Below are positions 23,221 through 59,017 of a stretch of 64,000 bases of DNA, one piece after another. The translations under genes were made by a program, and so were the position numbers. The stretch comes from Labia minor. Taxonomy: Eukaryota; Arthropoda; Insecta; Dermaptera; Spongiphoridae. The notes under the pieces were generated by a model. That model worked only from the letters and a program-made list of their open reading frames with translations. It was not told the origin of the DNA and ran no database searches. The number at the start of each line of letters is the position of its first letter. Within the stretch, counting starts at the first letter, position 1. The stretch spans positions 19,742,491 to 19,806,490 of the forward strand of contig OY720345.1 in the NCBI GenBank assembly GCA_963082975.1. The letters run 5' to 3'.

Positions 23221-23430
23221 TTTACTATCTCGAATTGAGATCACGAAAATTTTTGATGTTGAGATTTTGATGTTTTTATACGTTTTGAAGGTTCCTGAAT
23301 CATTTTCACTAAGGTTGAGAAAAATGTCTGTCTGTGTGTGTGTGTGTATGTATGTAGGCAAGATTACGCAAAAACGGTTTGAGCTAGAATCATGAAATTT
23401 GGTACACGGGCATTATTCAAAATTCGTAGT
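23221..23430 (+). mobile_element. Family A, 5' fragment
   Basis: TTTTTACTATCTCG start, damaged second half of the subterminal region, (TG)n at 23333-23350, then cut off against an inverted copy. Confidence 0.78.
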
Positions 23431-23431
23431 T

Positions 23432-25137: not shown

Positions 25138-28100
25138 ATGAATGAACCGATGTATAATAAAAATCTTCTTGATTCTAATTCGATGGCGGTTGCAAATACA
25201 ATCCATGCCACCTCCACAACCCCATCACGATCCACCGGATTCTCTATTGAATCCATTCTTTCATCCTCTTCTTCATCCACCTCCTCCTCATCGGCGTCCT
25301 CCTTGAATTGTTCACCATTGATGGAGTTGAGTCGATTGACCATTTATCCAACGGAGTCATCGGCCACGCGTGGCAATCTTTTATCATTTTCATCTTCACC
25401 AGGCGTTGATGACTACGATGAGGAGGGAATTCATGATGATGAGGATCCATTGGATGCCGACGTTGATATGGATGAAGAGGAGGAGGATAACGACGATACG
25501 GAAGTAGAAACAAACATTGGCGATGTTGGAGAGCAACAAACCAGAATCATGAATCCAGCTACCAAAGGAAACCATTCGAAAACAACACCTACATCCATCA
25601 AAGGTAGGTTGCATTCAAAAAAATAATTTCATTTCTATTTATTCATAGGTAACGAGTTTTATATTTTTTTTTTATTATTGTGTCCAAAAATGAACACAAT
25701 ATTCGTGTGAATTAAATAAAAAATACAATTTGGGTTTCAACAAGACATGTGCTACATGTAAACCAGGTATTTATACATTAAATGAAGATTTAATGTATAA
25801 ATACCTGGTTTACCGAGCCGACGCTCAGTCATTAAAAAAATTATTCCTTATTATCGGATTTGGTTTGCAATATTAATATCTGGTTCACCGAGTTCAATTT
25901 TCGCACACAATATATATTTCGTAATTTGATTTAATTTCTTACACGAGAAAAGCATTTTGAATTTAATTTAATCACATTTAAATTATCATTTACTAATTCA
26001 TATAGATAAAAAGTTTTTTTGGAATGAAATTATTGTAAAAAGAAAATTAATAATATTTAACATTTATTAATGCATACTTGGTTCACCGAGCCACCGCTCG
26101 GTCAATAAAAAAATAGGTTCCTTATTATCGGATATGATTCGTAATATTAATACCTGATTCACCGAATCGCCATTCAAATAATTTAACATAACATAAATAA
26201 AAAAAGATTAGTAATAAAACATACACCCCTTAAACGTTCGTATTAATGTACTGGAAGAAAGAAAAGAATGACCTTAAAAAATTATTTATTTAGAGATAAA
26301 ACTCCCATTTCACCTATGCTGCTCTTATGCTTTTCTTAAAAAAAAATATTCCTTATTATTGGGTTTGGCTGGTAATACTAATAACCGTCACCGTTCAAAT
26401 AATTTAAAAGAACATAAAATAGTCATAAAACAGATTCACCTTAAACGTATGTATTAATGCTCTGAAAGACAGAAAAGAATGGTCTGCTGATAATATATAT
26501 TTCGTAATTTGATTTAATATAATATATTTTGTATTTACGAAAGCGCTGTCTGAAAAAGTTGATGAAGTCATTTAAATTTTCTATTTTAAATTAAGAAAAA
26601 ACTAATAAACGTTCTGAAACAATTTAAATGTATGTATTAATGCAATAAAAAATAGATATAGATGTAATATAAGTATTTTTAATTTTATTTTATTTTTAAT
26701 ATATTTTGTATATAAGGAAGCGCTGGCTGACGTAGTTGCTGAGGTCATATAAATTTAAATTAAGAAAAAACTAATGAAGATGATTATTCCCGAGGCTGAA
26801 ACCGATAATTATAACAATATTTTAATAACAACGATAATAATGTTTAATATAATACAATTTGATACAATTTTTATATTAGATTCCTTCCCCTTTTTGGGGT
26901 GGATTACACAATTAAAATTACTTCCATTTCAATTTATCGAATACAAACATTTTAATCTCCAGACTACAAATAATATTGAATTAATATAATTTTCTTTATA
27001 GAAAATAAAATAATAAACGTATTATATATTTATTCGTGTGAAAAGAAGTAAAAAATCTGTAGCTACTTTACTTATTATTTCTCATTTATTAAATATTAAG
27101 GCTAATAGATAGTTTTATTTTAATTACCTGAAATTACGTTTATTAGGGTCGATGGAGATTTCGAAAAATCATATAGGGGTTGATGATCATAAAAGTTTGA
27201 CGACCCCTGAAATAGACCTTTGACTTAAAATAACCCCATAAGAAATCTAAGTTATAACTATCCTGTATAAAAGTGTTATAATTTTAAATATTAAACTTTA
27301 TTTATTTTATTGTATGGAAATTCTTGAATTGATTTTAGTTTGTAATTTGTAGTTGTAGATAATGATCAAATTCCAAAATGTATATCTAATACAGCGAACC
27401 ACTTACATTTTCATGTTTTGACAATGCTATGTTAAATTCTAGAAAAAGATTGCGATCCTGGCACTATTCTCCAACCATCCTATGGGCCAAGTAAAGCTTT
27501 GCTAAACTTAATATGAATTTGAAAAAATTAATTTTAATTTTTTACTATCTCGCCAGAGATAGTATTGCGATCACGAAAATTTTCGATGTTGAGATTTTGA
27601 TGATTTTATACGTTTTGAAGGTTCCTGAATCATTTTCACTAAGGTTAAGAAAAATGTCTGTGTGTGTGTGTGTATGTGTGTGTATGTATGTAGGCAAGAT
27701 TACGCAAAAACGGTTTGAGCTAGAATGATGCAATTTGGTACATGAGCATTATTCAAAATTCATAGTTTTCTATCAACTTTTGAGAAATGTAGCTCAACCG
27801 GAAGAGGGTCATTACCTACAACGTTTTGATTTTTTTTCCTCTAAAGTGACCGTAAAAATAAAGATATATGTTTGATAATATTTCACATGATTAAAAATTG
27901 TATAAAACTGCTATATATAGAATTTCAGCTTGATTGAATCGCTGAAAGTACAAGAATTAATTTTTTAACACTGCAAATCTCACGCGCTAACACGTGCCAT
28001 GGTGCCATCAATAAAAAACCAAACATGCACTGGTTTAATATTTATAATTTATAATTAATTAAATTTAATTTAAATATAATATATTATGTTATTTAATCCA

Positions 28101-31100
28101 ATTCAAATTGCGAGATAGTCGAGTGGAGTGGCTTGTTTTAATTAATATTGATAAAATTTGCAGCATATATTAAAAATAAGAGGATAGAAGAATATTCTGG
28201 TAATATTTCATCGCCTCAATCAATTTTGAGTTTATAACTTCATAATTTCCAAAACAAACAGACAGACATAAAACATACAAAAGTCATATTTGGATTCTCC
28301 AGGTCACTAAGAGTGAAGATTTGCAAAAAAATTTAAATCCTGAACAATGCAATTTGTACAGCAACAACACGCAATGACATTAATAGAAGTATACACTGAG
28401 TCTATTATGAATGTTTTTATACTACGAGGGAATTCAATCGATATTTCAGTAATAAAATATACATTTTGCTAGTTTAATCAACTAAGATAAATAAATAAAT
28501 ATTCAGTAGTTCAAATTTCATAATTTGTAATTTTAATGTGAATTGTTCAATTTTAATTCATTTCGATTGAAAAAAGTTATAATTATTAAAAAAATAATTT
28601 TGGCTTTATGCGTGCTTCGAAATTTTTCAAACGTGCCATAGGTTCGCCATTCTTGATCTAGAGCAGCTATTCTCAAAGGGGTCCATGTGGACCTCCTGGG
28701 AGGTCTATGGGACTTCATGTGGGGTCTATGATCACCAAGGGGTCTATTGGGGGTCTATGGATATCTTTTTAGTAAAAAATAAATTAAAAGGGGAGATTTA
28801 AGAATAAAACTTAGTAATTTTAGGCCAGAAATCGCACAAAAACGTCATCCATCATCTACACTAATATTATAATTTTGTAAAATATTTATGTTTTTTTTTA
28901 TTATGTGTTAAATTTAATCATTAAAAATATAGATATAATTATTGATATTTCAGTTTATTTCTTCTATACAATTTCCCCTCTCATTTTACTATTACTATGT
29001 GTTTTAAAATGAGTCGTCTGTGGTAACTTTGACACACATACAATTAGATATATATATATATATATATATATTCCTTAGGTAGGGGGTCTATGTAATAAAT
29101 AAAATTCCTACAGGGGGTCTATGGAAGAAAAAGTTTGAGAACCCCTGATCTAGAGGGTCAATTCTGATCACCGAAACGATAGAGTAGACACACGATCAGG
29201 AAATATATCTTATCTTATTATATTAGCAAAAATATTATACTAGCAAAAATTGTATAAATATATTTGTAAATAGGATCTATTAAACCGCTCTAACGATTTT
29301 TTTGAAATTCACTTCATAGATAGCATTTATAAAGAAAAATGAATTTAAGATGATTAAGATGTTTAAGATGATTTGTAAAAATTATAAAAAATAAATTCAG
29401 TTCAATAAAATAATAAATAATATTAATTTTCGATATTGTAAAAAAAAAGGATTTCTTTAAGCATTTTCGTCTTCAGATTGTAATTTCTTCTTTCTTTATT
29501 GTAAATATATAAATGTGTTGTTTTTTTTTATTAATCTCTTATTTCTTGTTTTATCAAATGTTTGAATTCTTTATTATGTGTAAAACACAAATCTAATGTA
29601 AAATAGAATTTTTTAATAATGCTGTTATGTTAATATTTAATACAGAATACTTATGACAAAATTTCGACAAAAGGTGCTTATCTGTCAGAAAAACCGTGGA
29701 TCTGTTATTTCATAAAAAAAACCCTATCTTATATATTATATATTAATGTAAATATATATTGAAATGGAAATTATTTTAATTATGTAATCTACCCCTAAAA
29801 GGGGGAGGAATCTAATACAAAATTGTATCTAAATTTCTTGAAATAAATCTAAATCTAAATCTATAAAGTCAAGAAATCTCAAGAATGAATTCTTATATAT
29901 GCATATACATATTATAATCATATAACTTTAAATTAAACCATATTCATAATACTAAAAGAATACTAATAGAATGAGATCCGTGTACAAAAAAAAACAAGTA
30001 ATTTTTTACGTGTTTCAGATAAATTATTATGGAAATCCAGAAAAATTCACATTATTTTATTAATTTTTTTATTTTTATTTTAACGTCTAAATTTTTGGTT
30101 TTTATAAGTTCGGTTTGGATATAAGAAGATTAAAAAATTAATTAATTAAATAATTTTCCTATATCCTAACCGAACTTATAAAAACCGAAAATTAGTGAAT
30201 TAGTCAATTACTAAATGGCTGCTCATTCATAACTAATTTATATGCAAACTTTAATCATTTTTATCTCGTAAACCGTAAACTACAAGCGACCGCCACATAC
30301 TTCTTAAGGAAAGTTTGTTTTGAATCAAAAAAGGAATCTACTGGTAAAGTTTTATCAAAATCCATCTACAATCATTAGACTAAACCAGGGTTTCCCAAAT
30401 TTTTTTCGGTTCGAGGTCTTAAAATTTGTCGCGACCCACTTCATTAAAAAAAAACATTTATTTAGAACACAAATTTTATTTTTCAATAAAAATCAAGTTG
30501 TTTATTTCATACACATAAATTGCAAAATAATTATATAAGAAAAATAAAAGTAATTAAAAAATTAATAATTTTCAAATTGTTTATTTTATACAAAAAATTA
30601 CAAAATAATTATACAAGAAAAATAGAAGTAATTTTGTGTTTCTAATGATGTAAAAAAATAATAAGAATTTCTAAAATTTTTTCGCGACCTACACTTTGGG
30701 AAACTTTGGACTAAATAATTACCAAATAAAATTTAAATTATGTTTGTTATCAAGTACAGCTTATTCTACCAAGAACTTTCGACTTATGTAGGACCATCAT
30801 AGATAGATCAGCATATAAATATAAATATATTCTAATATTAATTATTTTATAAAATAATCCATTCTAAAAACAAATAATGTGAAATTTTACTCATTTATAT
30901 TAAAATTAATAAATTTTAAAAAAAACTGTGATTATGCTGAGTTGTTTAGAACGTCTCTGGTCATCCTCATCTGTTCGTTAATGAAGCAGAAAAGCGAGGC
31001 AGATGAAGTGAGTGGCGTCGCTTGGCTGCCTCTTTCTCTCTTTCTCTCTCTGATGGCTCTTTAGGCTAATTAACCACCAGAAGCATCCCCTTGAAAAGTC

Positions 31101-34100
31101 AACGAAATCGTGCCGCCGAATTAACTCTTTCAAATTTATTACCCACGTCCATTTTTACTAAACTATTCTTAAACTACAAACACACACAAATTTATAAAGT
31201 ATTTTCTTCAAAGAGAATTTATATATTTTCACGCTTTTCCAAATCATCATCATTAACTTCATTAATTAATTAAAATAAATCATTTATTTCCATTTAATTT
31301 TTTTTATAAATCATTGAATAATTATTTATTTAATTTTATTCTTTTGATTAAATTATTATTATTTTTATTGTTCAATTACTTTTGAAACTTAATAAATTTG
31401 AACTACATTGGTCACTTAAAAAAAGAAAAGAAAAACTAATATTAAAAAAAATGAGCAAATCCAGTCACAGAACCGACCGACGATTTGAAATAAATTAATT
31501 TCCAAACAACATTATATATATATATATAAAGTATCAAAAAAAAAATATTTTTAAAACTTGAATTAAAATGACTAAATTATATTATCTTGGTTTTTATTTT
31601 TTGTTTAATTACTCAATTATTAATTTCTATTATATTTTAAATGAAATATTTTCCGACAATGAATATGAAATTAATATGTTGTAAACTACCACTTCTGGTT
31701 TCCGGATATACACCAAAAGTTAATGGATTCATGCTACTAATGCATTAAGTAAATATACCAAATTTTATCGAAATCCGTTCAGCCTTTCGAGCTGTAAACG
31801 TCTATACTGACACCCAGCGGACAGACGGACAGACATCATGCTACAAATTTTTCTGTTAACAAAATGCATGATTCGTGGAGATTTGTAAAAATCTCCACAT
31901 GTGAAATTTGTTGTGAAAACAATACCTTCCCTTCCTATTGTCAGTCGGTAAAAAAAAAAAAATTTCTTAAAGTGCAGAAAAAGGGCTCAAAAGGTTCTCT
32001 TCTGGTTCTCCTGTTCATGGACTAAGAGAAATCTTTATTTATTTTGAACGAAATTAATACTTTAATTCAAAATATATATATAAGTTAATCCTTTTTAATA
32101 ATATTAGTATCTATTTTAAAATTTTTATTAATTGATAGTTGATGGGAAATTAAATTTTTTACTTAATTATTATTATTATTATTATAAAGTAACTAAATTC
32201 GTTTAAGAAAAAGAAATTAAAAAATATCTTTCAAGATATTATAATACACTTTCAAGTTAATAGTGTCTTTATAAAATTTGGTTTTATCTATTTTTTTTAT
32301 TTTGAAAAGGGGGGAGTGTGGTTGGAAAGGGCGGAATGTGATGAGTGGGGCGGAGACTGAAGCCTGGAATAGATTTGGAAATGGGGCATCATAGAAAGAC
32401 TGAGTGTGTATAACAGAGAGAGAATGAAAGAAAGCAAGAGGGTAGAAGAGAAGAAGGAAAGGGGGCAAGCAGGAAAGGGAAGATCGATGGTTACGGAGCC
32501 AATTAGCGAGTTGGAAGACAGACAAGCAACGAACGAGAAACGGCGCTAACTGCCCTCTAATTACCCAGACCAGCCAAACAGAATCTATTTGTATTCGCGG
32601 TTAGGAAATGGAGAGATTATTATCCTCTTTAAATAAATATATACGATTACCCATTGGTGTAGGAGTAAATGTGAATGGGGGGGAGTGGGGGTGGGGGAGG
32701 AGGTGGAATGGAATGGGTTTAGGAATGAGAAAAAAGAGATAGTGAAACGATATAATGAACATGAAGATGAAGTGAAAGATCAATTTATTTGTTTTTTCTT
32801 TTTCTTTTAAATAGGATAAGTCTCCATTTTAAACAAGAGATCATTAAATCGAAATTAACCCATTTATTTGAATAACTATATACAATATAACAAATAATAT
32901 ACTTAATAGAAATATATAGTACCCCTATATACAAAAATGCATCCCTTCCTCATTAAAGATATTTAAATTATATGTGATGTGATTATATGTGATTGGCTCA
33001 CTTAAAAATGACTGAATCTCCTATAATCCTATGGGAAATTGAGCTTAGAAAGAACATTTAATGTATAATTTTATACAAAATAATAACAGCTACTATTTCA
33101 AATAATTATATAAATATTTTTAAGATTTTTTCAAAAAAAAAATCACTATCATTACAGCATTGATGAATTTCAATAAGTCTTAAACCTAAACTTTTCTATC
33201 TCATGTTACCTCCAAACATGTTTCTCCTCCAAATCCCTTTAATAAAGTGAGTCTAAACTAAGCACTAAATATCAAAATAAAAAATTGAATATTTTCAATA
33301 TCAAATATTTTAAATAAGAAATGTTTACTGGACAGTATATCTATAATATGAAAATGAATCGCAAAATGTGTTTGTAAGCTCATAACTCAATAACGCCTGG
33401 ACCAATTTTGCCAATTCTTTTTTTAAATATTCGTTGAAGTCTAATGATGGTTTTTACGACGAGAAAATCAAATACTTGCCGGGAAAACCCTATAAACAGC
33501 CCTTTTCTTTTTCCTTTACGTTACCATGACAACCGATAACAAGAAATTTCAAATTTGACTTTTTATTTTAGTTAGAAATTTTTTTTCCAGAATGCCATGA
33601 AAAAATCAAATTTAAGTAGGTATTTAATAAATAGTAGGCAAAGAAAAGAACGTTTAAAGTTAAGTCAGGTAGAGTCATCTGATTTGTTAGAATTACAAAA
33701 CAAAGATAAGGAACCTAAAATTATAAAACGATTAATTGAGTCTCAGTCAGAGAGAGAACATAGCCTTTTTAAAGATAAACTCTTACATGCAGCAGGTCGC
33801 TCTACTGAGACAGAAGAAGAAAAAGAAGAGAGGTTAAAAAAAAAAGATAGACTTCAGGGGGTACAAGGGGCGAGCCCGCGTCTAGGTGTGAAGAGCGCCG
33901 AAGGATGGATGTGATCAGGAAAATAAATTCAAAATAGTTTGTCAATGAGTGTGTTGATAGTTTCGTGTTTCATGTGCGTGTTTGTGGTCATTTTTTGTTA
34001 AGCTTCCACTGGTGCTGGTTTGAAACATTTGTAAACTTTTGACTTCTTTTTTTCTCAATCATAATTTTTTTTTTAAATTAATAAATAAACATAAAATATT

Positions 34101-37100: not shown

Positions 37101-40100
37101 TATTAATTAAAGTGAATTAGTGCGAACATTATTTGTTTTCCTTTTCCCTTAATTTTTTTTTCACCCTTTTGTATTCTGGGATAAAGACAATTTACCCAAA
37201 GTCTGGCGCCCATAATTTACTTATAATACAATTCTCAGTCATCGTGGGTCATTACAAGTGCCCCATAGTTGGATTTTCTTACAATTATTATTATATATAT
37301 ATGTTACGACCAAAACCCGAATTTTGGTCACATCTCAAATTGGCCGGTCAAATCGCACATTGACCAATATCGCCTCACAATGACCGGCCAAAATCCGATC
37401 TCTCCTTGATTTCGAAGTTTGGCCAGCGAGCTCGCGAAATGGCCCTTTGGCTCCTTCAGAAGAAAAAGGTCCTTCAGAACACAGGCCAAGGTTGGTTAGT
37501 AAGTAAGGATCTCAAAAGTACCAGAAATCTCCTGCTCTCCTATGAAAATTTCCTCTCCCTTGGAGAAAACAAACAAACAAATAATCTTGTTACAAAATGT
37601 TACAAAATGAACTTTTTTTTAGACATTTCGAATTGCACAGCAGTTTGACTTTCCAATGTCTCCTCCACAACTGCAGCTGATTCGTTTGCGGAGAAACTCA
37701 CTGTATTTACAGCATCATCCATTTCTTTTTCGAGATCTTTGTCTGTAACTAATTTATCGATAACCTCTATGGGCAAATTTGAGATGTTCAGTTTCCCTTT
37801 AGCTTTACAACCAAACTTAGCCTCATAATGTGACTGCTGAATTCCTTGATGAAAAGAATGGTTTTTCATAAATTGAATGAATCTGAGATGTGTAGATTTA
37901 TTTGTCTGTATATAACTAACCTTGCCACCCTATGTCTGTCGTTATCACACCGGAATCGACAGCTGCTGCGCCTACCAAACAGTCATGCTTCATCACATCG
38001 AACATTGGCCTGGGAGTTCCGGCCTCTTCCCGAATTCACCAGCCAAAGTCGTATATACTCTGTACAGTTCCAGTTATCGGACATTGACCAATAGGTGGTT
38101 TGGCCGGCCAATTCTGGAAATGGCTAAACTTCGAGCCTTGGCCGTAACATATATATATAAATTTAAATAAAGTTTTGAAACAAATGAATATTTAATTTTT
38201 ATTTTTGTTATATTTATCATCTAAATTTATGGGTATTTTTAAAGATCCGAGTGTTTCTGGATAATATCGATTATAAAATCTTATGTTATGTTAAAATAAA
38301 TAGATTTTTAAATTTTTGGTATGGTAACAAAATGTATTATCCAATTATCTTTGGATAATAAATATATTGTGATATTTTTACTATGTTTAAATTGGTAATT
38401 TTTTATGGGCTGAATTCCTGACGGTACTGCAATATCAGACCAACCCGTGACGAAAGTGGAGCAAGCTCTTAGCACTTCATCTATTTCTAAAAATCAGTTT
38501 AATATTCTGGTCTCTCGATGAGAGACGTATCAGATATTAAGCTGATAAGAACAGATACTACACTTTGATCTTAGCCAAAAGGCCGAGAAGCGATAACTTG
38601 ATAAGCATTTCACTCTTACTATTATTAAGGTGACAACCAAATAGATCATTAAATACAATTGCTTATTGGCTGCATATTTCGACGTTCTTAACCAGACTGT
38701 CAGACTTTAATATTTTTTATCTAAGCTATATCTAAACTAGAATTATTGTTTTTTTTTTAAAAAATAGAGGTCGCTTTTACAAATTGTCAAAGAATAAGCA
38801 TTATAAAAGTAATTATTTAATAATTTATATATTATAATTATAGATCATTAAATTAATTTAAAATAATTTTATTTATTTATTTCTGTAATTTTCTTTCAAT
38901 TTCTTATTGTTTTAATTTTTAAAGATATTTTCGATGGTAAGATAAATTCAGTGGCGTACCTAGAACTTTTGCCGCCCGGGGCGATCTCCAGTTTGCCGCC
39001 CTTTTTATTATAAGTCAATCAAATAGTGGTATTTATAAATTAATGCACATAAATAAATTATTAAGTTATTTAATCAATATTAATTAATACACAGAGAGAG
39101 TAAATTTTTTTACACATATTTGTATGCACTTGTATAAACATATTAATATAATATTTACTCTTCTAGCTTTCATACTAGAAAAATCGTGTATAATGCTCTC
39201 AAAATTTATATTTATATTTTTTCCGCCGGCTCTGCTTTTCAAAAGAAAAATCTATGATTTAAAAAAATATTGGTATATCACTTCAAAGTAATCATATAAA
39301 CTTTTCAAAAGAAATGACATTTATAAACTGATATCAAAAAATTTTAGTTAGGAAAAATTGCCGAACAAAATCGTAAAGATGCGTTTACGAATTCAACGAA
39401 TTTTAATGAATACAATAAAATAAAATTATTATCCTGTTCTTAAAATTAGAATTCAAAATTTACACTAAAATGCATTTATATACACCGAGGAATAATATTC
39501 GAAATCATATAGTTGATCATAATTTATATAAATCAAATAGTAAACTTATAATAATCATAATAATCATTTATTATTCAAGAAAGAAAAAAAATAAATATGA
39601 AATGAATACGTTGCTTTTTACAACTATAACTAAATATAAAAAATGCCGCCCCAAGATAAGTGCCGCCCGGTGCGGACCGCACCCACCGCACCCCCCTAGG
39701 TACGCCACTGGATAAATTGAAAGAACTTGTTGCATGTATGATTAGGTGATAAGGCATGTGGTAGAAACCTTCGCTATTCCACACCAGAAAGTACTCTCAA
39801 ATTTAGCTATGGATGAAATGGTCAAACCTATATTTTGCAAGTACATTTGAAAATCTAATGGAAAAGAAGAAACAATTAATAAATTGGATTTATATATTTT
39901 TTAAATATTATTAACTCTATTATCATCATCCTTGATGTTATTTTTATCAATTATCTTCCCTTAAATTTATATTTTTTTTTTGATAACTTTAAAAAAAAAA
40001 AATATGTTTATAAAATAATTTTTTTTTAATATGATTTTTTTTAGTGTTTATTGACCATAGTCTTTTCAAATTCAAAGCATTTAAGAAATAAATATAAGGT

Positions 40101-43100
40101 AATGGCACCTATAGATGACATGGCACCTATAGATGACACTTTTGAATTTAAACTAAAAAAATAAGCAAATTTTAAAACATACGCGGAAATTTTTTTTTTA
40201 AATGATAGTTATGCTTTTCCACCACCTGAGATATCCTACAACAATACAATAAGTCGCCCTATTTTTTTTCTTTTAACTTGAAAAGCAGACCGAATCGTCA
40301 ACAATTGATTTTTTCAACAAATCTTAAAGATAACCTTAAGGGAAGTAATGTTCTTAATTAGTATTTTATATTTTTATATTCATATTTATCAAGAATTTAA
40401 CAACTACATTATAAAATAGACTTAATATAGATATAAATCATTTCTTTTTAAACACCTAATTTTTAAAAGTATCTTTTTTATCAACGGTGTTATCTATAGG
40501 TGCCCCTAAAAATTGTTTTTCCTATAGATGACAGCAATGTCAGCTATAAGTAGGTTTTTAAAAAAATTGTCTATTATATTAATAGCTGTAAAGAGGAGAT
40601 AATTTTATATAATTCCACCAAGTTGCATGTCTGAATTGATATAGGAACCTAAAGGTGACGCTGTGTTTCTCATTGTCAGAAAATTTTTTTCTGTTCCAGA
40701 ACTTCATACACTATTTTTTGAAATTTTTTTTAAATTACTCTGTTCTCAATGTAAAATTAAAAATGCATAATTAAAAAAAGATTTGTTTAAAATCAATTTT
40801 TTATTTTATTATAATAATCAGCTAAAAATAAAATCAATCCCAATAAATATATCTAATGTATCATTATATGAAACCTGATTTTTTTATTATAACTAAAGTT
40901 AAAGCAGCAACAAGGTGTTGGAAAGATGTTTTACTTTGTAAATAAATAAGTTGAAGATAAAGAGAGCAAACGAAGTGAAAAAAAGTAGATGTCATCTTTG
41001 GGTTCCATAATTGTCATCATTAGGTTCCACCAAAATTTTTGGTGTCATCTATAGGTTCCATTTGATTACTTTGAAAAAAAATTATATTTCCTATTAAACT
41101 CATATAAAAGTTTAAAATATTTATCCTGGTGATAAAAGGTAAGATAAGCTTTATAATAACCAAAAGATTTTTTTTGTGAGACGTATAGTTTCGGTTTTAT
41201 AAAAGAAAATAGCGACAAGAGCGCTTAAAATGTCATCTATTGGTGCCATTACCTTATTATTAATTTGTTTGAGTCATTAATAAATTGTTGATTAAATTTT
41301 ATTGCTTTGGAATGTTTTAAAATTTGGAATTTAATTGAAATGATTTGTAACGAATAAAATTTTAATTAAATTTATCCATTAAATGGTCATAAAGGAATTG
41401 TGTTGTGATGGTTGCAGCAATTTAAGGGGAGAAAAGTGAAATGGAAAAAAATAGAAAGATGGTGTCTCATTACTCATGATTTATTCTATGTTTATTTCTT
41501 AATAATTTATTTATTTTTAAACTTTCAAATATATATGTATATTAACTCGGAATAGAATCCTAGTGATAATTATTCATTTTTCAACATTACATTCAGTATA
41601 AAAAACATACATAAATTATTATTATTTCTTTTTAGATAGGTTAATAAATGGAACTAGTAGGAGGTGAGGTTTGTTAGTAGAGAACGAAAGGGTAAGGATG
41701 AAGTGAGGGTGAAAAATTAGACACAGGAAGAATTAATCAATTTACACTTCATCCAATTAAAAAAAAAAATAAACTTATAGCTACATTTATTTTATTATTA
41801 TTAAACACAAGACATTTACTTGATAATAACCACAATTTACACTTATTAAATATTTTAAAATTTAATTTATTGCTTTATTATTTCAGTAATGTCATTAATT
41901 ATAAGTTAAAATAAGATTTAAATTAACTTAAGTTACCTTTCAAGTTACTTTTATTAGTATGTATTTACAAATGAGTTATATATTAGAAAGAATTATATAT
42001 AGTCTTCATCATCATGGATATAATATATAAATATAAGAATATAACTTAAATATTTTTGTCTGTATAACCATACATCAATATATATAATTTCCGTCGTATG
42101 TATGTGATATCTGAAACAAAATGAAGTTAGTTACAAATTGTCAAAATTATTAATCTGTAACTAACTTCATTGTATTTAGACTAGGAGCCGCCTGTCCCTC
42201 TAAGAAGAGTTTTATACTGCCGGAAGCATATTATGCCGGGAACGGCTAGTAAATAATTATTTTTCATTTATATTCATGTGTTTTGTTATATCAATGTATG
42301 GAATCCTTTAAAAGGGTCGCATTTGAAGGTTATGAATAAATTTTAATAAGAACAAAGAGAATATAATCCTAAAAATTAAGAAAATCCCGTTGACTTTATC
42401 AAGACAAATAATTAAAATAATTATTGATTATAAATTAGTAGTTCTAATTTAATATTATTATACCACATTTCTCCATTTTCATCTTATTTTGTATTATTAC
42501 TTTTTCTTTTTTCTTGCCACACTCGTTTCAGCATATCAGTTGTAACTTTGGCAACTGCAGCTTTGATCCGATTGATCTGAGGGATTAAAAAGTTTTCCAG
42601 CATATTAAGATAAACAATTCCCTTGATAGTTTTCTCCATGAAGAAAATAGGGCTCTACACTTTAAAATGACTGACGGCACAAAAAACGTTACTTTTGGAC
42701 TGTCACGAACGTGTTCAATACTTGCATTTGGATTTGCTACCCCAAATTCTACAAATGTGAGTGTTCACCTTGTCATTAACATGTAAAGTCGACTCATCGG
42801 TGATCTTAAGGAATGTCTCGTCTGCCTCTATCCGTTCAAACATTTCAACACAGAATTGACTACAAGCTACCTTAACTAAATCACTAATCTTTAGCATCAT
42901 TGAACCTTAAAAATTTAAGTAATTATATTAATAGTATTGTATCTTTTCATTGAGTGTTTTTCTGAGTTGGCTCATTTGTAAATAAAATACATTGTAGAAA
43001 TCAATTTTTGAATACAAGTGCCATTTTTATATTTAAGTTTTTTAATAAAATAAAAGTAATTTCTTTCACTGCAATTTTTTTCTTAATTATTATCTTCTTA

Positions 43101-46100
43101 TTCTTTTTAATAATATTAATAATAATTATATATATATACCAGCCGTTCCCGGCCTCATATGGTTCCGGCGGCATAAAACTCTTCTTATTCGAGGGACATT
43201 TTAAAACATTTCAAATACTTATAAAACAACAAAATGTTTAAATATAAAATTAACTTTATTCAAATCGTCGTAATAATTTTTTTATTTGACACTTATTTAA
43301 TTTAACAAAAATGAAGTTAATTACAAATTAATAATTTTGAGAATTGGTAACTAACTTCATAATGTTACAAAAATCACATACGTAAGACAGAAATTATATA
43401 TATTGAATTTATATTAAACGCTTCATTGATCTGTATAATTAAAATAAATGATTATTTATTATCGTTGTTGTTATATATTGATTAATGTAATGGCACCAAT
43501 AGATGACATTTTAAGCGCTCTTGCCACTATTTTCTTTTATAAAACCGAAACTATACGTCTCACAATAAAAATCTTTTGGTTATTATAAAGCTTATCTTAC
43601 CTTTTATCACCAGGATAAATATTTTAAACTTTTATATGAGTTTAAGAGGAAATATAATTTTTTTTTCAAAGTAATCAAATGGCACCTATAGATGACACCA
43701 AAAATTTTGGTGGAACCTAATGATGACAATTATGGAACCCAAAGATGACATCTACTTTTTACCGACCGACGATAGTAAGGGAGGTATTGTTTTCACACCA
43801 AATTTCACATGTGGAGATTTTTACATATCTCCACGAATCATGCATTTTCTAAACAGAAAAAAGTATTTTTAGCATGATGTCTGTCCGTCTGTCCGTCCGT
43901 CTGTCCGTCCGTCCGTCTGTCCGTCCGTATAGATGTGTACAGCCTGAACGGCTCAACCGATTTTGATGAAATTTGGTATATTTACTTAATGCATCAGTGG
44001 GATGAATTGATCAACTTTTGGTGCAATTCCGGAAACCGGAAGTGGTAGTATTAGCGATCGACGATAGGAAGGAAAGGGTTATTTTCACACCAAAGGAGAT
44101 TTTTTTATATATCACCACGAATCATGCATTTTGTATTGGTTTTATCCTCGAAAAAAATCATATTTATTAGTTTTTTCTTGATTTAAAATTATATGACGTC
44201 ATCCAGCCATGCATGACGTCACAGCCTGGTCTTGCATATATATTATAAATAAAATAAAATTAAAAATGTTTATATTTATTATTTATGTATCCATATCTGT
44301 TTTTTATTACATTAATAGATATATGAAAATTATTTGAAATTGTTTCTGTAGCTGGAAATTAATTTATTTCAAACCGTCGGTCGGTTCGGACCTGGCCACA
44401 GGTCAACTTATTTTCACTTCGCTTGCTCTCTTTATCTTCAACTTATTTATTTACAAAGTAAAACATCTTTCCAACTTTAGTTATAATAAAAAAAATCAGG
44501 TTTCATATAATGATACATTAGATATATTTATTGTGATTGATTTTATTTTTAGCTGATTATTATAATAAAATAAAAAATTGATTTTAAACAAATCTTTTTT
44601 TTAATTATGCATTTTTAATTATTTATACTTTGAGAAAAGAGTAATTTAAAAAAATTTTCAAAAAAATAGTGTTTGAAGTTCTGGAACAGAAAAAAATTTT
44701 CTGACAATGAGAAACCTAAAGATAAAACACAATATCAATCAATTCAGACATGAAACTTGGTTGAATTATATAAAATTATCTCCTCTTTACAGCTATTAAT
44801 ATAATAGACAATTTTTTTAAAAACCTACTTATAGCTGACATTGCTGTCATCTATAGGAAAAACAATTTTTAGGGGCACCTATAGATGACACGGTTGATAA
44901 AAAAGATACTTTTAAAAATTAGGTGTTTAAATTGAAGTGATTTATATCTATATTAAGTCTATTTTATAATGTACTTATTAAATTCTTGATAAATATGAAA
45001 ATAAAAATTTAAAATACTAATTAAGAACATTACTTCCCTTAAGGTTATCTTTAAGATTTGTATAAAAAATCAATTGTTGACGATCCTGTCTGCTTTTCAA
45101 GTTAAAAGAAAAAAAATAGGGCGACTTATTGTATTGTTGTAAGATATCTCAGGTGGTGGAAAAACAAAACTATCATTTAAAAAAAAAAATTCCGGGTATG
45201 TTTTAAAATTTGCTTATTTTTTTAGTTTAAATTCAAAAGTGTCATCTATAGGTGCCATGTCATCTATAGGTGCCATTACCTTATATAAATAATATATTGC
45301 AAATAAATAAGAAAAAAAGTTATATTAACGCATCTAGAACGAACGTATTTATATTTATGAATAGAAAAAATTCATGTGCGATATTTAAGGCGATTACTCT
45401 TTGGTCCGACGGCGGATTTCAATTCAGATTTAATGAAGCTTATCTCTCGCTCACTCTTTAGAAGCATTTTTTTTTATAAATTTAATAAAAATCACTAAAA
45501 TTATCATCTTTTATAAATTATAAACTTATATTAAAAAATTTTAAAAAATATTGAAATTGAAATAGTTTAAGGATATTTTTAATTATTAGAATATAATATA
45601 TAAATATATCTAGAATATAATATACTCATTTTTTTCTACGATGAAGAAAAATGTATAAAATAATCAAAATATTAAGGATTGGTTAAATTAACATTAGAAT
45701 TCAATAAAGTTTTTAGTTTTTTAAATTACAGAACTACTAAAAATATAAGAATAGTAATATATTTATAATATTATTTATTATATTTATAAATTCTTTCTTA
45801 TTTAATATAAAAATAACAAATCTTAGAAATTTAAATTACAAATAGAAATTCCAATATTTATCATGTTACATTTACAATTATAATGATTTAAAGAATTATT
45901 TATTTATTTTTTTAAATGATCATTAACTAAAAATGTTTATCAAAATCCTTTATTTTTTTTTTTTTTTAGAAAATGGCATTTCCAGTTCAGCTGGCCTCGA
46001 AGAACGTAAAAAAAGGCCCCGTACAGCATTCACGGCAGCACAAATCAAAGCATTAGAAGCCGAATTTGAACGAAATAAATATTTAAGTGTTGCAAAACGT

Positions 46101-49100
46101 TTGGCACTTAGTAAACAACTAAAACTCACTGAAACACAGGTATTTTATAAATTATCACATGAAAAAATTAATTCTAATTTTATTATATAAAACTATTGAT
46201 TCATAATGTATTTCTGATATGTGTTTGGTATTATAAAATTTAATTTTTTTCACTTTTCATTGTATGATAATGCGTATGATGAGGCGATTTTTGAAATTAT
46301 AATAAATTTATAGAGAGAAAGGCATAAAGGACCTATTAGAATATTATACTAAACTATTTTTTGAATATAAAATTTTTAACGTTATAACAACTGTTAAAAA
46401 TGTATTTTTTAATCATTTCAACTATAGTCATTATAATTACTTGTTTTCCATTTGATTAATTGAGATCTTTTACATAAATTATAATTATATAATAATATAA
46501 TATTTATTAAAATAAAAAAATTTCGATTAAAATTTGATAACTTATCTTATATAAAGGAAAAATTTAAACCTTTAAAATTTGAATTTATTCAAAATCTCTT
46601 TTATGGAGGAGCGTTATCACTCTCGAAAGAAGATAATAGATAAGTATCAAATTAATTATGAAAAAAATGAGAATTTAAATTATCTTTTTATTAATAATTA
46701 ATATATACTAGCTACTCCGAGCGCCTTCACACCTAGACGGGGGCTCCGCCCCCTGTACCCCCGAGTGATATATAGTATTTGGTTGAGTCTGTATGTAAAA
46801 GGTTTTCATCCATTTTGTTTCAATCAGTATAAATAGATAAAGCATTTATTTGTTTTCTTGTAAAATATATTTTAATTTAATCAGTAAATTAATTATATAT
46901 TATTATTGTATATGTTATATTTATCTAACTCTGTGTCTCTACAGTTTTCGAAAGTTCTTAGCCGCAGCATCCACATTTCTCTAAGCGTCCCTATCCTGAT
47001 GTACAACCAAATCCTACCCTGTCCCATCTCTCCCATGTCCCTTCCTTCATTGTCCACCCACTTTGGTCCTTGGTCTTCCACCGGATGTTTCCCAATCGGT
47101 TTCTCCCAATTTCTAGTTTCTCCAATTCCAACCACGTTCCCTTCCCATCCCAGCCTTCTCGATTTTATAACCTTAAGAACTTAACTATATCTGGACATTA
47201 TTTCTCGTTATGCCATCTCCGCCATCCCCCTTGGCCTATAAATGCTGCGAACAATATTAATCTCTCAAATACTCTAAATCTACTCTCGTCTCCCAGAGTC
47301 ATCGATAGGGTGACCAAACGTCCCGTCTTTAGGTGCTCTGTCCCAAAAATGTCTTCGGGACACCCTACTGTCCCGTTTTTTTAATATTTAGGACATTTCG
47401 TAATTTTTTTTTCAAAATTTTTTCAATTTAGTTCTAAAAAAAAGGTATACCGTTTGTCCCGGTTTCGTGTTTTCGAAATATGGTCACCCTAGTAATCGAT
47501 CAACATGAAAAATAATTGTTTTATATATTTTAATTTTGATCCTCTTTGATGAGATGAGCCCCTTTACTGCATAACAATTACTCAATTACAACGTCGATTT
47601 AAATTCTTCTCGAATATTATTATCCTTCGTGATTAGAGATCTTAAGTATTTAAATATTTATACTTTTTCAAATTCTACATTTTGAATGTTAATTGTATGT
47701 AAGTCGTATCCGTAGCATAATTCTTGAATTTTTTTGTTTAATTACATTTCGGTTGATTTTTCCCCAATTTCTCTAATCACATGTCTCCTCTTCCAGTCCG
47801 ATTCATTTACCTGGCTAGAACACTCCATTTTTTAAAATTTTAAATAGAGGGAGAGAGAGAGGTTCTAATTATATATATATATATCTGTTTCTATGACAGT
47901 AAAAAAGTAAACAAATTACATACATACAAACACTCTCCTTATATTTATATTTCTGGAAAATGGAACACCCGCAGCTCAGCTCAGGAGTTACCAAAGATTC
48001 TAATTTCTTTTTTATTTTTCATCTCATTTGAGGTACCCTTCACCTCAGAAAAATTTGGTTACCTTACTCCTTGTATTTTAGGCTCTGGAGTTTTTTGCGT
48101 ACGGACGGACACTGTCGTATTAAATATATAGATATATATATAATTATTATATATATTATTTATAAATTAATTTACAAAATTTTTCATTTTTTTTAAATCA
48201 AAGAAAATAATATGCTATGAAATATGTATGAATTTAAATATTGATTCATGACATAATTTTTATATATTCTAAATATTTTATTATGGATCATTTGATTAAT
48301 TACTATAATTTACAATCAAACAGGATAGGAATAAGACAATATTATTGTGAGTAGGTGTGCGAGTAGGTTTTGATTTTATTTTAAATTTCCTTTTACCTTT
48401 GAAAATGATGACTTTAATAAAATGAATTTGGATAACATTTATTTTATATTAATGAGGATCTTTCTTATAAAAACAAATAAAAATAGTAGTACAATATTAT
48501 ATCACTTTCCCTTTCATATTCCTTTTTTTTATTTTCATACTCTCCTCTCACCATTTTTCTTCCCATTCGATCCTCCCACTCATTCACATTTGAAAATAAA
48601 TTATTACAATATCATTTCTAAACCATAAATTTGTCAAAAGATTGGAACCATTTTCTGTTCATAATTATATTCATTGCTAAACAGATTTAAAAAATAAAAA
48701 ATTAAAACACATGAAAATTATATCGGCCAATAACCTTTTTTTATAAAAAAAAAATAATTTATGTTACTAGGATATTTAATAATAAGAAGAAGAAACATAT
48801 TTCATTTTTACTCTCTTCCTTTGTATAATTATAATTAAAAAAAAAAAAACTAAGAAGAAAAATAAATAAATATATCAACCAAAGTTATTTCGTTGAGTAT
48901 TTGAGTATTTTTTATTCTAGTAATAATTATCTATTAACTTTATTTTTTTTTTATTTGAAATTTTATTTTTGTAAAACAAATTCAGTCGTTATTCTTTTTT
49001 TCATTTTATTTTTTTTTTAATAAGAGATTTGTTCTTAGCAAAATATTATTAAAAATATTTTGTAAATTTATAATTCACAACATTAAATATTTAAAATTAT

Positions 49101-52100
49101 ACATTTTATTACTTGTCTTTTTACTATCTCGCCAGAGATAATAAATATTACGATCGCGAATGTTTTCGATGTCGAGATTTTGATGTTTTTATAAGTTTTG
49201 AAGGTCCCTGAGTTATTTTCACTAAGGTTGAGAAAAATGTCTGTGTGTATGTGTGTGTATGTAGACAAGATTGAGCAAAAACGGTTTGAGCTAGAATAAT
49301 GAAATTTGGTACACAGGCATTATTCAAAATTAGAAGTTTTCTATTAACTTTTGAGAAATGAATCTCATTCGGAAGAGGACCATTACCTACGTCGTTTTCA
49401 TTTTTTTTCCTCTAATCTGACCGTAAAAATAAAGATATATGTTTGGTAGTTTTTCACCCGATTAAAAATTGTATAAAACTGCTATATTTAGAATTTCAGC
49501 TTGATTGAATCGCTGAAAGTACCGGAATTAATTTTTAAAATTTTTTTACAAGTTGACTGCCAATCACGCGAATGCACGTGACATCAACAAAGAGCCAAAT
49601 ACGCACTGGTTTGATAATTAGGTGACCAATCGTCCTCCTATAGAGAGAACAATCCTCCATTTGTAAGCTCTGCCCTATCTTTTGTAACTGTCCTCCTAAC
49701 AGTCCTTTTTACCGACCGACGATAGTAAGGGAGGTATTGTTTTCACACCAAATTTCACATGTGGAGATTTTTACATATCTCCACGAATCATGCATTTAAT
49801 TAACAGAAAAAAGTATTTTTAGCATGATGTCTGTCCGTCCGTCCGTCTGTCCGTCCGTATAGATGTGTACAGCCTGAACGGCTCAACGGATTTTGATGAA
49901 ATTTGGTATATTTACTTAATGCATCAGTGGGATGAATTGATCAACTTTTGGTGCAAATCCGGAAACCGGAAGTGGTAGTATTAGCGATCGACGATAGGAA
50001 GGGAAGGGTTATTTTCACACCAAATTTCACATGAGGAGATTTTTTTACATATCACCACGAATGTATAGGTTTTATCCTCGGGAAAAATCATCTTCATTAT
50101 GTTTTTCTTAATTTAAAATTATATGACGTCACCCAGCCCTTCATGACATCACAGCCTCGGGTAACGCCGGCAACGCCGGCTATTTCAGCTATATATTATA
50201 AATAAAATAAAATTAAAAATATTTATGTTCTATCCATATCTGTTTTTTATTACATTAATAGATATATTAAAATTATTTGAAATTGTTTCTGTAGCTGGAA
50301 ATTAATTTATTTCAAACCGTCGGTCGGTTCGGACCTGGCCACAGGTCAACTTATTTTAGTTGATCTGTCCCGTTTATAAATATTTAGGATATTTCGTACT
50401 TTTTTTCAAAATTTTTTCAATTTGCTTCTAAAATAAAAAAAAGGTAAAACGTTTTCTAGACTAAGCTTTTGAACATTTCCGAATTTTTTTTAAAATTTTT
50501 TTCATTTTGGTTCTAAAGGGTAAAATGTCCTGATTTGGTGTTTTCAAAATATGTTCACCTTATTAATAAATATTACTTATAATTTTAATTTATAATTAAT
50601 TAAATTTAATTTAAATATAATATATGTTAACTAATCCAATTCAAATTTTCGAGATAGTCGAGTGGAGACACTCCAGATTTTTTTATATTATTTTTTCTAT
50701 ATATAAATTTTTAATGAAATAAAAAAAAAACATTAAATATTTAATTAGAAATTAAAATAAAATAATAATAATAAATATAACAATAATAATAATGAGTTTT
50801 TTTTTTTAATTGTGTGAAATTTAATAATTGTCAAAGGACTCTCAAGATATTTTATCCTTGACTGAATCATGTTTTATGCCCGGAAGGAAATCGAGTTGAT
50901 GGGAAGAGGTGTTAGAAGAGCAAAGGGGGGGAAATTTGGTGAGGTATTCAGGTGTCATGGTATGTGAGAATGAACGGCGCCAGTTAGTCGAGGCGCCCCC
51001 ACATGGCCAATTAACCCGACATTAACGCCCCAAAAGTTTAGCGCCAGTGATTCTTTCTCTGTGACTTCCTACCCCTAAAAACACATGGTGATATTTTTCC
51101 TTATGATTTATGACGGCATTTCACATTCAAGAGGGATTAGTTTGCAATGTATATCATTCCAACACACACACTCACAAGACCAATGTTTATTTTAAAACAT
51201 CATTGAAAAAAATAAAAACATCCATAAATTATCTAAAATAAATGAAGCCGTTTGGAATTAATTTAAAAGTGGATTGGATGAAATCTGGCTTAGACCCACT
51301 CCTCTCAGCTTTCTTATTAGTATCGTTGTTACAATCAATAAATTATTCAAAGGAAAAAATAAGCTACTCGAGCTCTCCACTCGCAATTTTAATTGGAATA
51401 AATAACATATATTATATTTAAATTAAATTTAATTAATTATAAATTATAAATTAAAATTAATTAATTGTTTGGTTCTTTGTTGATGGCACCACGTCACGTG
51501 CCGGCGCGTGATTGCCAGTCAACGTGTTAAAAAATTAATTCCGGTACTTTCAGCGATTCAATCATGTTAAAATTCTATATATAGCAGTTTTATACAATTA
51601 TTAATCATGTGAAAAATTATCAAACATATATTTTTATTTTTACGGTCACTTTAGAGGAAAAAAATCAAAACGTTGTAGGTAATGACCCTCTTCCGGTTGA
51701 GCTACATTTCTCAAAAGTTGATAGAAAACTTCTAATTTTGAATAGTGTCCGTGTACCAAATTTCATTATTCTAGCTCAAAACGTTTTGCGTAATCTTGTT
51801 TACATACACACACACATGTATATATATACAGACATTTTTCTCAACCTTAGTGAAAATAACTCAGGGACCTTCAAAACATATAAAAACATCAAAATCTCGA
51901 CATCGAAAATTTTCGTGATCTGGCGAGATAGTAAAAATAATTGAATTTTAAAATATACTTACAATTAGTATACATATTTATCTTCTTAATTAATATATGA
52001 TCAAAAGTATACATATTATTTTTTCAATTTCTACTATATCAGATCACACTCTCCCTATATAATATATATTTCTATTGTACAAATTTTCAACCGTTAAAAA

Positions 52101-55100
52101 AATACTTTTTAATGATTCATTTTAGTTTAAATAATTTTTTTTTTTAAATCTGTAAATTTGATATTAATAGAGTTTTTCAAATATTAAATTCATTTAAGAT
52201 ATTTAGCTGGATATAAAATGGGCAACCTTTTTGTAATGTGGGCCAAAATTGAAAACAACCAAACTTAAGCGGGCCATTAACATTGGTTTTCTAGGTAAAT
52301 GAAAATTATGTTTTCAGAAAACGGTGAAGAAAATTGATCATAAAATAACCACAATTGACAAAAAAATGATGTTATTGGTATGGTATTTATTTTAGTAATG
52401 AATGTTATTAGAAATAACTGAATATTTTGATAAATATCATTAAAACATTTGAATAAGGGCCGGCCACCATATAAATTTTAAATATGTTCGCGGGCCGTAG
52501 TTTATGTGCAGGCGGGCCGCGGGTTGCCCACCCCTGGCTAAGATGGTTGAGTGACGATTTTTACTATCTCGAAAGAGATAGATAAAATAATGAAATTTGG
52601 TACACGGGCATTATTCATAATTCGTAGTTTTCTATCAACTTTTGAGAAATGTAGCTCAACCGGAATGAAGTCGATCATTACCTACTACGTTTTCATTTTT
52701 TTCCCTCGAAACTGACCGTAAAAATAAAAATATATGCTTGAAAGTTTTTCATATGATTAAAAATTGTATAAAACTGCTATATATAGAATAATATCAACTT
52801 GATTCAATCGATGAAAGTACCGGAATTATTTTTTTAAATTATCACTTTAAAATGAAGGTAAAAGTTTTAAAAAAATCAAAACAATGCTGATATTTCGAAT
52901 TTGATTGCTTTCTTATTTCAATAAAATTTTTATCAGTGAAAATTATGTTAAAAACCTTAAATCATATGATCGGATAGAATAAAATTTTAATTAATTTTCA
53001 AATATAGAAAAAAGTTTGATTATTCAATTCAAATTTGCAAGATAGTCGAGTGGAGACACTCGAGATTTAAAAAAATTCAATTAATTTTTAGCAGTTTTAA
53101 ATAGAAATAATTTTAAATGTTTTTATTTCATATTGTTATGTTGTTTAAATAAGAAAAAAATTAAAACAAAAAAAAAAACAAATTCAAAATTTCGTCTATT
53201 TTTGAATCAAATGGAACACCGTGGAGGTTTAATACATTTTTGTTGTCTTTTTTTTTCTATATTTCACAACTAATGAATTTAGGGATTATTTAATAAATTT
53301 AAATAATGTTATTCATATGTATAGAAAGTAATTCAATTTAAAAAACAAAAATGTTTTTCGTCTCAACTAGCATGCATTTGGAAATATGAATGCGTTCCAG
53401 ATTTGTTGCTTTATTCATCCTCTAGCCAAATTTTAATTGGTGGGATGGTGTGCTCTTTCAATGTGATTTACTACCTTACCCACCCCCTTAACGGGGACAG
53501 AATGAGGGGTCGGTTCTCATCACACCCTCTGGCGCCAGCAGGTCTTCCGCCCTCAAGAATGTCGCCTTTAATTACTATTCCACACCAAATGTCGTTTCAC
53601 GTTGTCATTTTTCTTTTAATTAATGGCCCAATTCATTTATTTAAGAATAATCATTATATGATAATGAATAATACCATATTTATCTATCTATCTATTTATC
53701 TATATCTATATATATATAATACAAATCTTAGATATTATCTAATTATCTATTTTTCTCATTTTTTTAAAAATAATGTCCAGTCTCCCCTCCAAGCTTCCTT
53801 CTCCTTTCCTGATTGGATGGTTTTCTGGACATTTATTACATTTTAATTGATTTACATCTGTATATCATTGATGGGGAAGGGGTACTGGTGAAGAAGTGAT
53901 GGTGTGTTTCTCTTTGACTTAAGCTGTTTGACTGTTATTCATGAAAGGTTGTCGTAAACAAACAGCAACAAAAACAAATTTATCTGTGACATTTAATAGA
54001 AGAGTAAAAAAAAAATTATCTCTCCAGTCAAGAGAAAAGTCAACAGAAATAGATTCTACTCAATCTCTCTCCCACTCTTCACCCTCTCCTCCTTCATCAT
54101 CTGAAATCTATTTTCATTTACACTTATTTGTCTTTAAATTAAAATCATCATCATTTATTAAGTAACTATTCTTTTATGTGTTATATACAAATTGGTTTAT
54201 TATATTATTTTATTTTATTATTATATTATTTTCTTAATTAAAAATTAAAAATGTAAATTAATTAATTTTAATAATTATTTTAAAAAGCTGGAAAAAAGAT
54301 AAAGCCGCCGTTTTACTTTTTTAGTTTTAAGTGTTTAGAGGTGGTCCATTTATATATTTAAATAAATAAATAATTTAAATAAATCTAAATAAATATAATT
54401 TTAAGATTACTATTGTATATGTATTAAAGGCGCCACAGGGTAAGGGGTTAGCGTAGCTTGTTCAGATTCTCGTGGTTCCGGGTTCAAGTCCCGGGCCTGG
54501 AAAGGGAACTTCTCTAGGTGGGGACTATGGGACGGAGTCAACCCAACCTCCGGATCAAAATTGAGAAGCTACTTGATAGCGCCTCCGATCAAGAAAACCA
54601 AGGTAAAGGTTGATAGGACCTGTTCTACTGATCATAATTGATATAACCGACTTGATAGGAGTTGTCCTTGCCTAGGCCGTATTGAAGTCATAGGTTTTTT
54701 TTATATTATTAAGATTAAAATTTGTAATGTAAAATTACAAAAAAAAAATACTTTCTTACTTTTGTTTAAATTTTAGAAATAAAGATGTATTAAATTTTTT
54801 TTATTTATATTCCAAATTAATACAAAAAATCTTGATCTATATTTCTTGACATTAAATAAAAGTGTAATACAAATATAAAATAGATATTTTATACAAAAAG
54901 AGATGAAAGTGTTCTTTGAGTAGGAGGAGGGATTATTTATTTTTTTTTGTTTTACTCTACTCATATTAAAAAATAAAATTATTCTTATATTACTCCAAAA
55001 ATAGTAAAATTGTATTCATGAGATTTCTCTACTCATAGTAGAAGACTAAAAGAAAATGCTTCGAAATATTTTTTGCTCTTAGATTTTTGTTTATTTTATG

Positions 55101-59015: not shown

Positions 59016-59017
59016 TA

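Follow-up and report, generated by a model that had tools for sequence, protein, structure and literature searches.

We examined a 64,000-nucleotide stretch of the genome of the dermapteran insect Labia minor (contig OY720345.1, positions 19,742,491 to 19,806,490 of the forward strand), here called the window and numbered from its first letter. Two families of repeats in it, A and B, share one internal layout and carry different terminal sequences. We conclude, with a probability of about 0.92, that both are families of HINEs, non-autonomous Helentrons (rolling-circle transposons of the Helitron2 type), which have diverged from a common ancestor carrying a tract and a core. In the window, 14 cores belong to these families (nine to A and five to B), and there are further fragments.

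Layout of families A and B

Elements of both families run in the same order: a short inverted end, a tract, a core, AT-rich filler, a 3′ inverted end, a hairpin and flanking Ts. Family B is represented by two full-length copies on the plus strand, B43 (43761..44410), a HINE of a long subtype for which a paralogue of the empty site exists, and B49 (49711..50353), which lies inside a homeobox intron. In both, the 5′ subterminal inverted repeat (subTIR) ACCGACCGACG directly follows TTTTT (43761..43771 in B43), a (GTCC/GTCT)n tract starts at +116, and the core lies at +204 and +184, respectively. Tandem Repeats Finder placed the (GTCY)n microsatellite of B43 at 43879..43928 with a period of 4, in agreement with the CCGT/CTGT tract that a preliminary description, made from the letters of the window, had put at about 120-165 bp. 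A GTCY tract within a short element is reportedly also found in the (GTCY)n microsatellite miniature inverted-repeat transposable elements (MITEs) of Lepidoptera named in the title of a 2011 paper by Coates et al. The 3′ terminus of both B copies reads CGTCGGTCGGT-TCG-GACCTG-GCCA-CAGGTC-AACTTA and is followed by TTTT (44375..44410 in B43 and 50318..50353 in B49), just as first described.

Family A is represented by the full-length copies A13 (13558..14157, plus strand) and A15 (15276..15873, minus strand), among others. The 5′ end is ACTATCTCG after Ts and the 3′ end is CGAGATAGT-CGAG-TGGAG-ACA-CTCCA-G. The A tract is TG-rich, and the tracts of both families open with ATGTCTG. The 3′ layouts of A and B had been taken as equal; the order of parts is indeed the same, but the A stem that folds begins four bases past GAGATAGT, not three. 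In copy A14, the hairpin is altered on both sides, from TGGAG/CTCCA to TGGAC/GTCCA.

The ends are far more frequent than expected by chance. With up to two mismatches, ACCGACCGACG occurs 28 times in the window; in 100 shuffles the mean was 1.16 and no shuffle exceeded 4. Genome-wide (604 Mb), it was counted 25,431 + 25,612 times, with each complete element scoring twice, versus 50 + 42 when the order of its letters was reversed. A blind scan of the window for an inverted 9-mer with hairpin and T-flanks gave nine rows, compared with a mean of 0.1 in 20 shuffles. All nine corresponded to A or B ends, one of them linking the ends of two adjacent A copies. The same scan of 20 unselected 10-kb stretches, run with a wider length limit and without a shuffle control, gave 23 rows, of which 21 had A or B ends. 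The other two were CTCGCAATT, borrowing an A hairpin, and GAAGTGAAA, a chance match. The preliminary description had proposed a search for more families with this spacing; in the 264 kb covered by the blind scan, no third family of such layout was found, only A and B.

The spacing holds in genomic copies. In A, the tract starts at 97-114 (10 of 22 5′ ends) and the core at 163-201 (12 of 22); in B, the tract starts at 97-120 (12 of 16) and the core at 153-216 (12 of 16). The tract was searched only at +80 to +170 and the core only at +140 to +260. The offsets of both parts overlap between the families, as the spacing check suggested at the outset asked. Together with the copies in the window and the blind scan, they confirm that B has the architecture of A with different terminal sequences. 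A fully paired 3′ hairpin was counted by eye at 18 of 22 A 3′ ends, all preselected for GAGTGG after GAGATAGT, and at 12 of 17 B 3′ ends. As for coding capacity, none of the three open reading frames (ORFs) of at least 150 aa in the window lies inside A or B, and a 119-aa stop-to-stop frame overlapping A51 had no Pfam match. No Rep or helicase emerged from a Pfam search that covered the two homeobox exons together with 17 of the 24 frames of at least 90 aa in the window.

Such a layout has been published before, as the architecture of HINEs and DINE-1, and this extends to the (GTCY)n tract of B. DINE-1, the INE-1 or mini-me of Drosophila, is described with 13-bp subTIRs, a GTCY-rich tract in block A, a core of ~90 bp, a hairpin a few nucleotides past the 3′ subTIR, insertion between Ts and no significant ORF (Yang and Barbash 2008, PMC2374699). 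It differs from the families studied here in its subTIRs (four melanogaster-group species compared) and in its central tandem repeats, of which none were noted in A or B; its GTCY tract is found in B, whereas A has the TG-rich one. Helentrons and HINEs occupy T-rich sites, their empty sites display no target-site change, and the non-autonomous elements are deletion derivatives; the same paper also unites DINE-1-type elements with Helentrons (PMC4067079). The HINEs and Helentrons of Metaseiulus, Culex and others likewise have subTIRs, a 3′ palindrome and a Rep/helicase/endonuclease ORF with an S in the Rep motif (Thomas et al. 2014, PMC4067079). The distance between their 3′ subTIR and the terminus is about 38-60 bp, as compared with about 25 bp in B and 18-22 bp in A. 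Families are defined in the same paper by identical subTIRs of at least 11 bp. By this rule A and B are separate families; the B subTIR is 11 bp and perfect, and the A subTIR, with 9-10 bp, is slightly under that length. By description, Helitron2_Cv of Calliphora (PMC3630058) and Cg_HINE of the oyster (PMC7492417) both have 11-12 bp subTIRs and a GTCY tract, along with a 3′ stem-loop or palindrome. Several families within the oyster genome share modules unevenly, and the oyster HINEs carry satellite-like arrays, unlike A and B (PMC7492417).

The shared core and the insertion sites

The core (43945..44054 in B43) is the inner part that A and B have in common. Three motifs, GATGAAATTTGGTA (position 0), ATCAACTTTT (+45) and CCGGAAGwGG (+71), stand at identical offsets in the two families; in B43 the first is at 43965 and the third reads CCGGAAGTGG. 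Two shared inner blocks had been recognized in the preliminary description and stand; the third, ATCAACTTTT, had been overlooked. Among 22 A and 16 B 5′ ends, the second motif, where exact, was always found at +45 (seven A and nine B copies) and the third always at +71 (five A and six B copies). Without gaps, 50 of 90 core positions are the same in the A and B consensus sequences; past the opening 14-mer, 37 of 76 are. When 20 upstream bases were included and the 14-mer left aside, 46 of 96 positions agreed, versus 26.5 with a standard deviation of 4.4 over all window positions; 46 was reached at 11 of 127,730 positions on both strands, family copies included. The register is not absolute, as small core indels occur in B21 and A23m of the window and in copies at two genomic loci (L067 and L068).

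Gapped alignment gave a less even result. With the 14-mer included, 0 to 237 of 1000 shuffles equalled the local score in nine pairs, B31/A27 being the worst, and with looser gap costs downstream of the 14-mer, 0 to 2 of 1000 did so in six pairs. Because this signal is uneven, the register is the main argument for homology of the core. Taken together, the three motifs in one ungapped register support a shared ancestry of the A and B cores, and in this respect the earlier view of a single lineage with one inner module is upheld. A third core copy, C1 (57080..57189, minus strand), has the same register with no HINE ends seen; it agrees with A at 63 of 96 positions and with B at 49 of 96, and is nearer to A than B is. 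The surrounding intron sequence at 56920-57500 contains several GAAATTTGG cores in both orientations and CCGGAAGT blocks, again with no HINE ends seen. The core of the Drosophila elements presumably resembles that of A and B. Scans of viral contigs with the core, the B 3′ end and the spaced core, in a collection with few animal sequences, returned nothing but 44 matches read as chance phage matches; a collection of genome contigs, also with few animal sequences, gave no match to the spaced core. A text search of the literature with the core letters brought up no transposon paper by title.

In most copies the motifs keep their register and a nearly constant distance from the 5′ end though about half of the bases differ between A and B. 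On these grounds, the ~110-bp core might be a functional Helentron part that works independently of the terminal sequences, a reading that we regard as unlikely.

One insertion event can be read directly. The occupied site of B43, CTACTTTTT followed by B and TTTTCACTTC, has an empty counterpart, CTACTTTTTTTCACTTC, in an inverted paralogue of the host repeat without B (40092..41256, minus strand), with flanks 97% and 92% identical. With B in place the sequence is CTAC-T5-B-T4-CACTTC; in its absence it is CTAC-T7-CACTTC. As only the number of Ts differs, B43 entered a T tract with no other change of the target site. T-rich insertion without target-site modification, as in HINEs, was observed at this one clean empty site, for B only; the site of B4 agrees with insertion into a T tract, but its alignment is poor. 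The site of B49 in the D11 repeat was tried as a further empty site and rejected as too diverged. TTTT precedes the first base in 13 of 14 5′ ends, versus 3.2% of window positions, a count biased by the pattern used to gather these ends, which itself included TTTT at up to 2-3 mismatches. The host of B43 belongs to an inverted repeat pair, 40092-41256 and 43483-45286, with tandem ATGGCACCTATAGATGAC units. Another repeat, with GGTGACCAnnCGTCC, is located at 3944-4099, 47300-47500, 50365-50570 and 58836-59017; it hosts B4 and adjoins B49. Canonical Helitrons insert between A and T. Such an element was also considered and rejected for B: a 5′ TC and a 3′ CTRR would be expected, and B starts with ACCGACC and ends with AACTTA in a T tract.

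A candidate source element for family A

Concerning the proteins that these repeats would depend on, at least 104 Helitron_like_N matches were present genome-wide, and six Rep/helicase ORFs were retrieved (loci L073-L078). The Rep motif has the Helitron form RGLPH in L073, L075 and L076 and the Helentron form RGSPH in L074, L077 and L078. An S in this motif is described as diagnostic for Helentrons (PMC4067079). The L077 ORF (L077:1894-8436), with 2181 aa and no stop, matches Helitron_like_N (E 1.3e-23) and PIF1 (E 1.9e-31), carries the Rep motif VEFQMRGSPHEH, with S, and is predicted to have Rep and helicase activity. It is also the only one of the six with an Exo_endo_phos_2 match, located in a long C-terminal extension (E 0.0013 searched whole, 2.7e-4 alone). 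The C-terminus further displays a weak match to the Ulp1 protease (Peptidase_C48, E 0.004, under the cut-off), and its last 431 aa found no match in the PDB. L074 and L078, whose ORFs also have RGSPH, lacked both an endonuclease match and, within the stretch fetched, A or B ends.

An exact A 3′ end is located 1.26 kb past the stop of the L077 ORF on the same strand. At another locus, L080, the same C-terminus is found at 97% identity (106 aa), with an A 3′ end 0.24 kb past the stop. The blocks shared by L077 and L080 (230 and 249 bp) are 99% identical up to ...CTCCAGCTAATTTT and unrelated beyond it. Since the identity stops at the A terminus, the element that carries the ORF is bounded by the A 3′ end. 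On the other side, positions 1-519 of A13 match a region ~4.3 kb upstream of the L077 ORF (87-94%, with an inner part present twice), giving an element of ~12.2 kb (contig C1:47862610-47874777, minus strand). Judged from end densities, the chance of an A 3′ end this near to the ORF in the right orientation is 0.044 and that of an A 5′ end 0.152; for the two together it is about 0.007, a value that applies to one locus and is uncorrected for the six ORFs examined. A product over three neighbours (6e-5) was discarded, as it treats two loci that are 99% alike as independent.

Taking into account that a Rep/helicase ORF is bounded by an A 3′ end at two loci and accompanied by an A 5′ module at one, family A is probably an internal-deletion derivative of an L077-type Helentron, as judged from sequence comparison. 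A potential partner of A with Rep, PIF1, a C-terminal endonuclease (below the cut-off) and the same ends is present in this genome. The L077 locus also holds positions 1-538 of B49 (83%) between the A 5′ module and the ORF, with the B 5′ end intact and no B 3′ end; this piece may be either a nested B that has been truncated or another start site that can be used.

By analogy with Helentrons, we presume that A and B spread by rolling-circle copying. The 5′ subTIR would mark where a Rep nuclease begins a single-strand copy, and the 3′ subTIR and hairpin would mark its stop. The copy would then enter between Ts and alter nothing in the target but the T run. Full-length Helentrons would supply the proteins, to B presumably as to A, and the ends, tracts and fillers of the two families would have diverged after the common ancestor.

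Several observations weigh against these assignments. Compared with shuffles, the hairpins have only a modest advantage in folding (z -1.5 to -2.5). A perfect 8-bp palindrome, ACTATCTC-GTTA-GAGATAGT, stands at the A 5′ end (two copies folded), and no palindrome was found beside the 5′ subTIR of B (one copy folded and 5′ ends listed), a further departure from the equal layout first described. The partial inverted repeat that accompanies the 5′ subTIR in DINE-1 (PMC2374699) is, in other words, present in A and absent in B. The endonuclease match of L077 reaches 21.2 bits, below the Pfam cut-off of 27.4. About 1 kb between the ORF and the A 3′ end in L077 is absent from L080, and in the 3.3 kb of L080 read upstream there is no A 5′ end and no similarity to the upstream region of L077. 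No A or B end was detected in L073-L076 and L078 over the 9-9.5 kb retrieved, except for a hairpinless B subTIR with one mismatch in L076; L081 and L082, which may be wrong stretches, have neither A or B ends nor similarity to the L077 ORF. A full-length Helentron with B ends was not encountered among the ORF loci fetched.

Unlike ends and the surroundings of the copies

How one core came to lie between two sets of ends may be considered in several ways. The preliminary description proposed that one lineage had swapped its terminal recognition sequences. Its premise, descent of the core from a common source, stands; the exchange itself does not gain support from the copies. In such an event, an A- or B-type Helentron lineage would have taken foreign ends in one step while keeping its inner module, through template switching or by reading from the 5′ end of a neighbouring element. 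The common core with unrelated ends would fit, as would the second internal 5′ end of the long B copies, nearest to that of the fragment B7, and the B 5′ portion, lacking a B 3′ end, that lies at 47.87 Mb of contig C1 with the A 5′ module on one side and the ORF on the other. Bypass producing new 3′ ends is documented in bat Helitrons (PMC4778049). However, no copy with A ends and a B core, or the reverse, was seen in the window or among 32 full cores from loci L045-L072. In the window, 12 of 12 cores with a 5′ end and 9 of 9 with a 3′ end carry the end of their own family (14 cores). In L045-L072, judged by eye, the same is true of all 24 cores that have a 5′ end no more than 300 bp away and of all 21 that have a 3′ end no more than 700 bp away; besides its own 5′ end, a single B core also has one of A within range. 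The latter sample comes from 41 listed core-like places, nine of which were dropped as poor or partial; only A and B ends were sought, and L045-L052 are biased by preselection for a B end. With an identity of only ~50% between the A and B cores, any exchange would be old, and slow divergence predicts the same pattern. This core identity points to an old A/B split, and drift of the 9-11 bp ends, which are not alignable between A and B, under a changing Rep suffices. Slow divergence of the ends explains the data equally well, and we consider a one-step exchange rather unlikely; in view of the mixed A/B locus, a mixed element may still be conceivable.

Two unrelated Helentron families might instead have captured the core independently, as Helitrons capture host DNA, and the core copy C1, with no HINE ends seen, could be viewed in this light. 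Independent capture would not, however, place the core at a similar 5′ distance behind a tract opening with ATGTCTG in both families, and in DINE-1 the ~90-bp core stands in the same block as the GTCY tract (PMC2374699). We regard this origin as quite improbable. Even less probable, and very much so, are MITEs of the cut-and-paste type, which would have terminal inverted repeats and duplicate a TT target. Such elements would display short and perfect inverted ends in T-rich surroundings, as seen here, and related elements were formerly classed as MITEs (PMC2374699). On the contrary, the 3′ inverted copy is subterminal and followed by the hairpin and, in B, by AACTTA, and the A 3′ end borders a Rep/helicase ORF rather than a transposase. 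The reading of A and B as HINE families that diverged from one tract-plus-core ancestor is the one we retain.

The remaining copies in the window vary in their parts. B has two subtypes with unlike 3′ inner halves: B31 (31470..31949, minus strand) is of subtype II, with a different 3′ inner half and no hairpin past the 3′ subTIR, and B21 (21586..21689, minus strand) is a core fragment of the same subtype. The second, internal 5′ end of the long copies is located at 44053..44131 in B43 and at 49983-50062 in B49, both on the plus strand; B4 (4098..4608, minus strand), within another repeat, lacks it. B22 (22908..23142, minus strand) is the 3′ half of an element and ends within the hairpin, and B7 (7861..8037, minus strand) is a 5′ fragment. 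The hairpin is not intact in B31, B22 and B20. Three B 3′ ends (31470-31504, 20430-20464 and 22908-22928) stop at or inside the hairpin, two of them directly after the subTIR; these are possibly alternative stop points or truncations. On the plus strand, A27 (27544..28140) has a truncated hairpin, A24 (24439..24860) both ends with the core deleted, and A52 (52563..53063) a deleted tract that leaves the 5′ end 26 bp from the core. A49 (49123..49620, plus strand), without its 3′ end, lies immediately upstream of B49. The composite A23 (23224..23939, 716 bp, strand not assigned) has an inverted A 5′ end on each side and is flanked by TTTTT and AAAAA, resembling a head-to-head fusion of two A copies.

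As for neighbouring sequences, a homeodomain is split over two exons whose intron contains A49, B49, A51, A52 and C1. A 351-aa open frame at 8472-9527 encodes C2H2 zinc fingers (10 by Pfam) in an 84-bp DNA tandem array. Two 754-bp segments, 10046-10799 and 38949-39702, are 100% complementary and 28 kb apart, and look like a very recent duplication or a transposon pair. At gathering scores, Rfam detected only U2 snRNA in the window.

Two very abundant repeats of this genome, with 51,043 places matching the B end motif and 15,582 exact A 5′ ends, can now be filed as Helentron derivatives, and family A is tied to its likely source element. In Drosophila, a conserved ~90-bp core with five different subTIRs is already described from 11 species, with three subtypes in D. 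willistoni (PMC2374699). The two families described here extend this pattern, a conserved core with unlike ends, to families side by side in one genome, in which it becomes testable what the core is for and how new ends arise. If the core is functional, as a bound or structured site might be, it would allow the ends to be replaced, and the A-ended Helentron with a B 5′ end would represent an intermediate with two possible launching points, its A and its B 5′ end.

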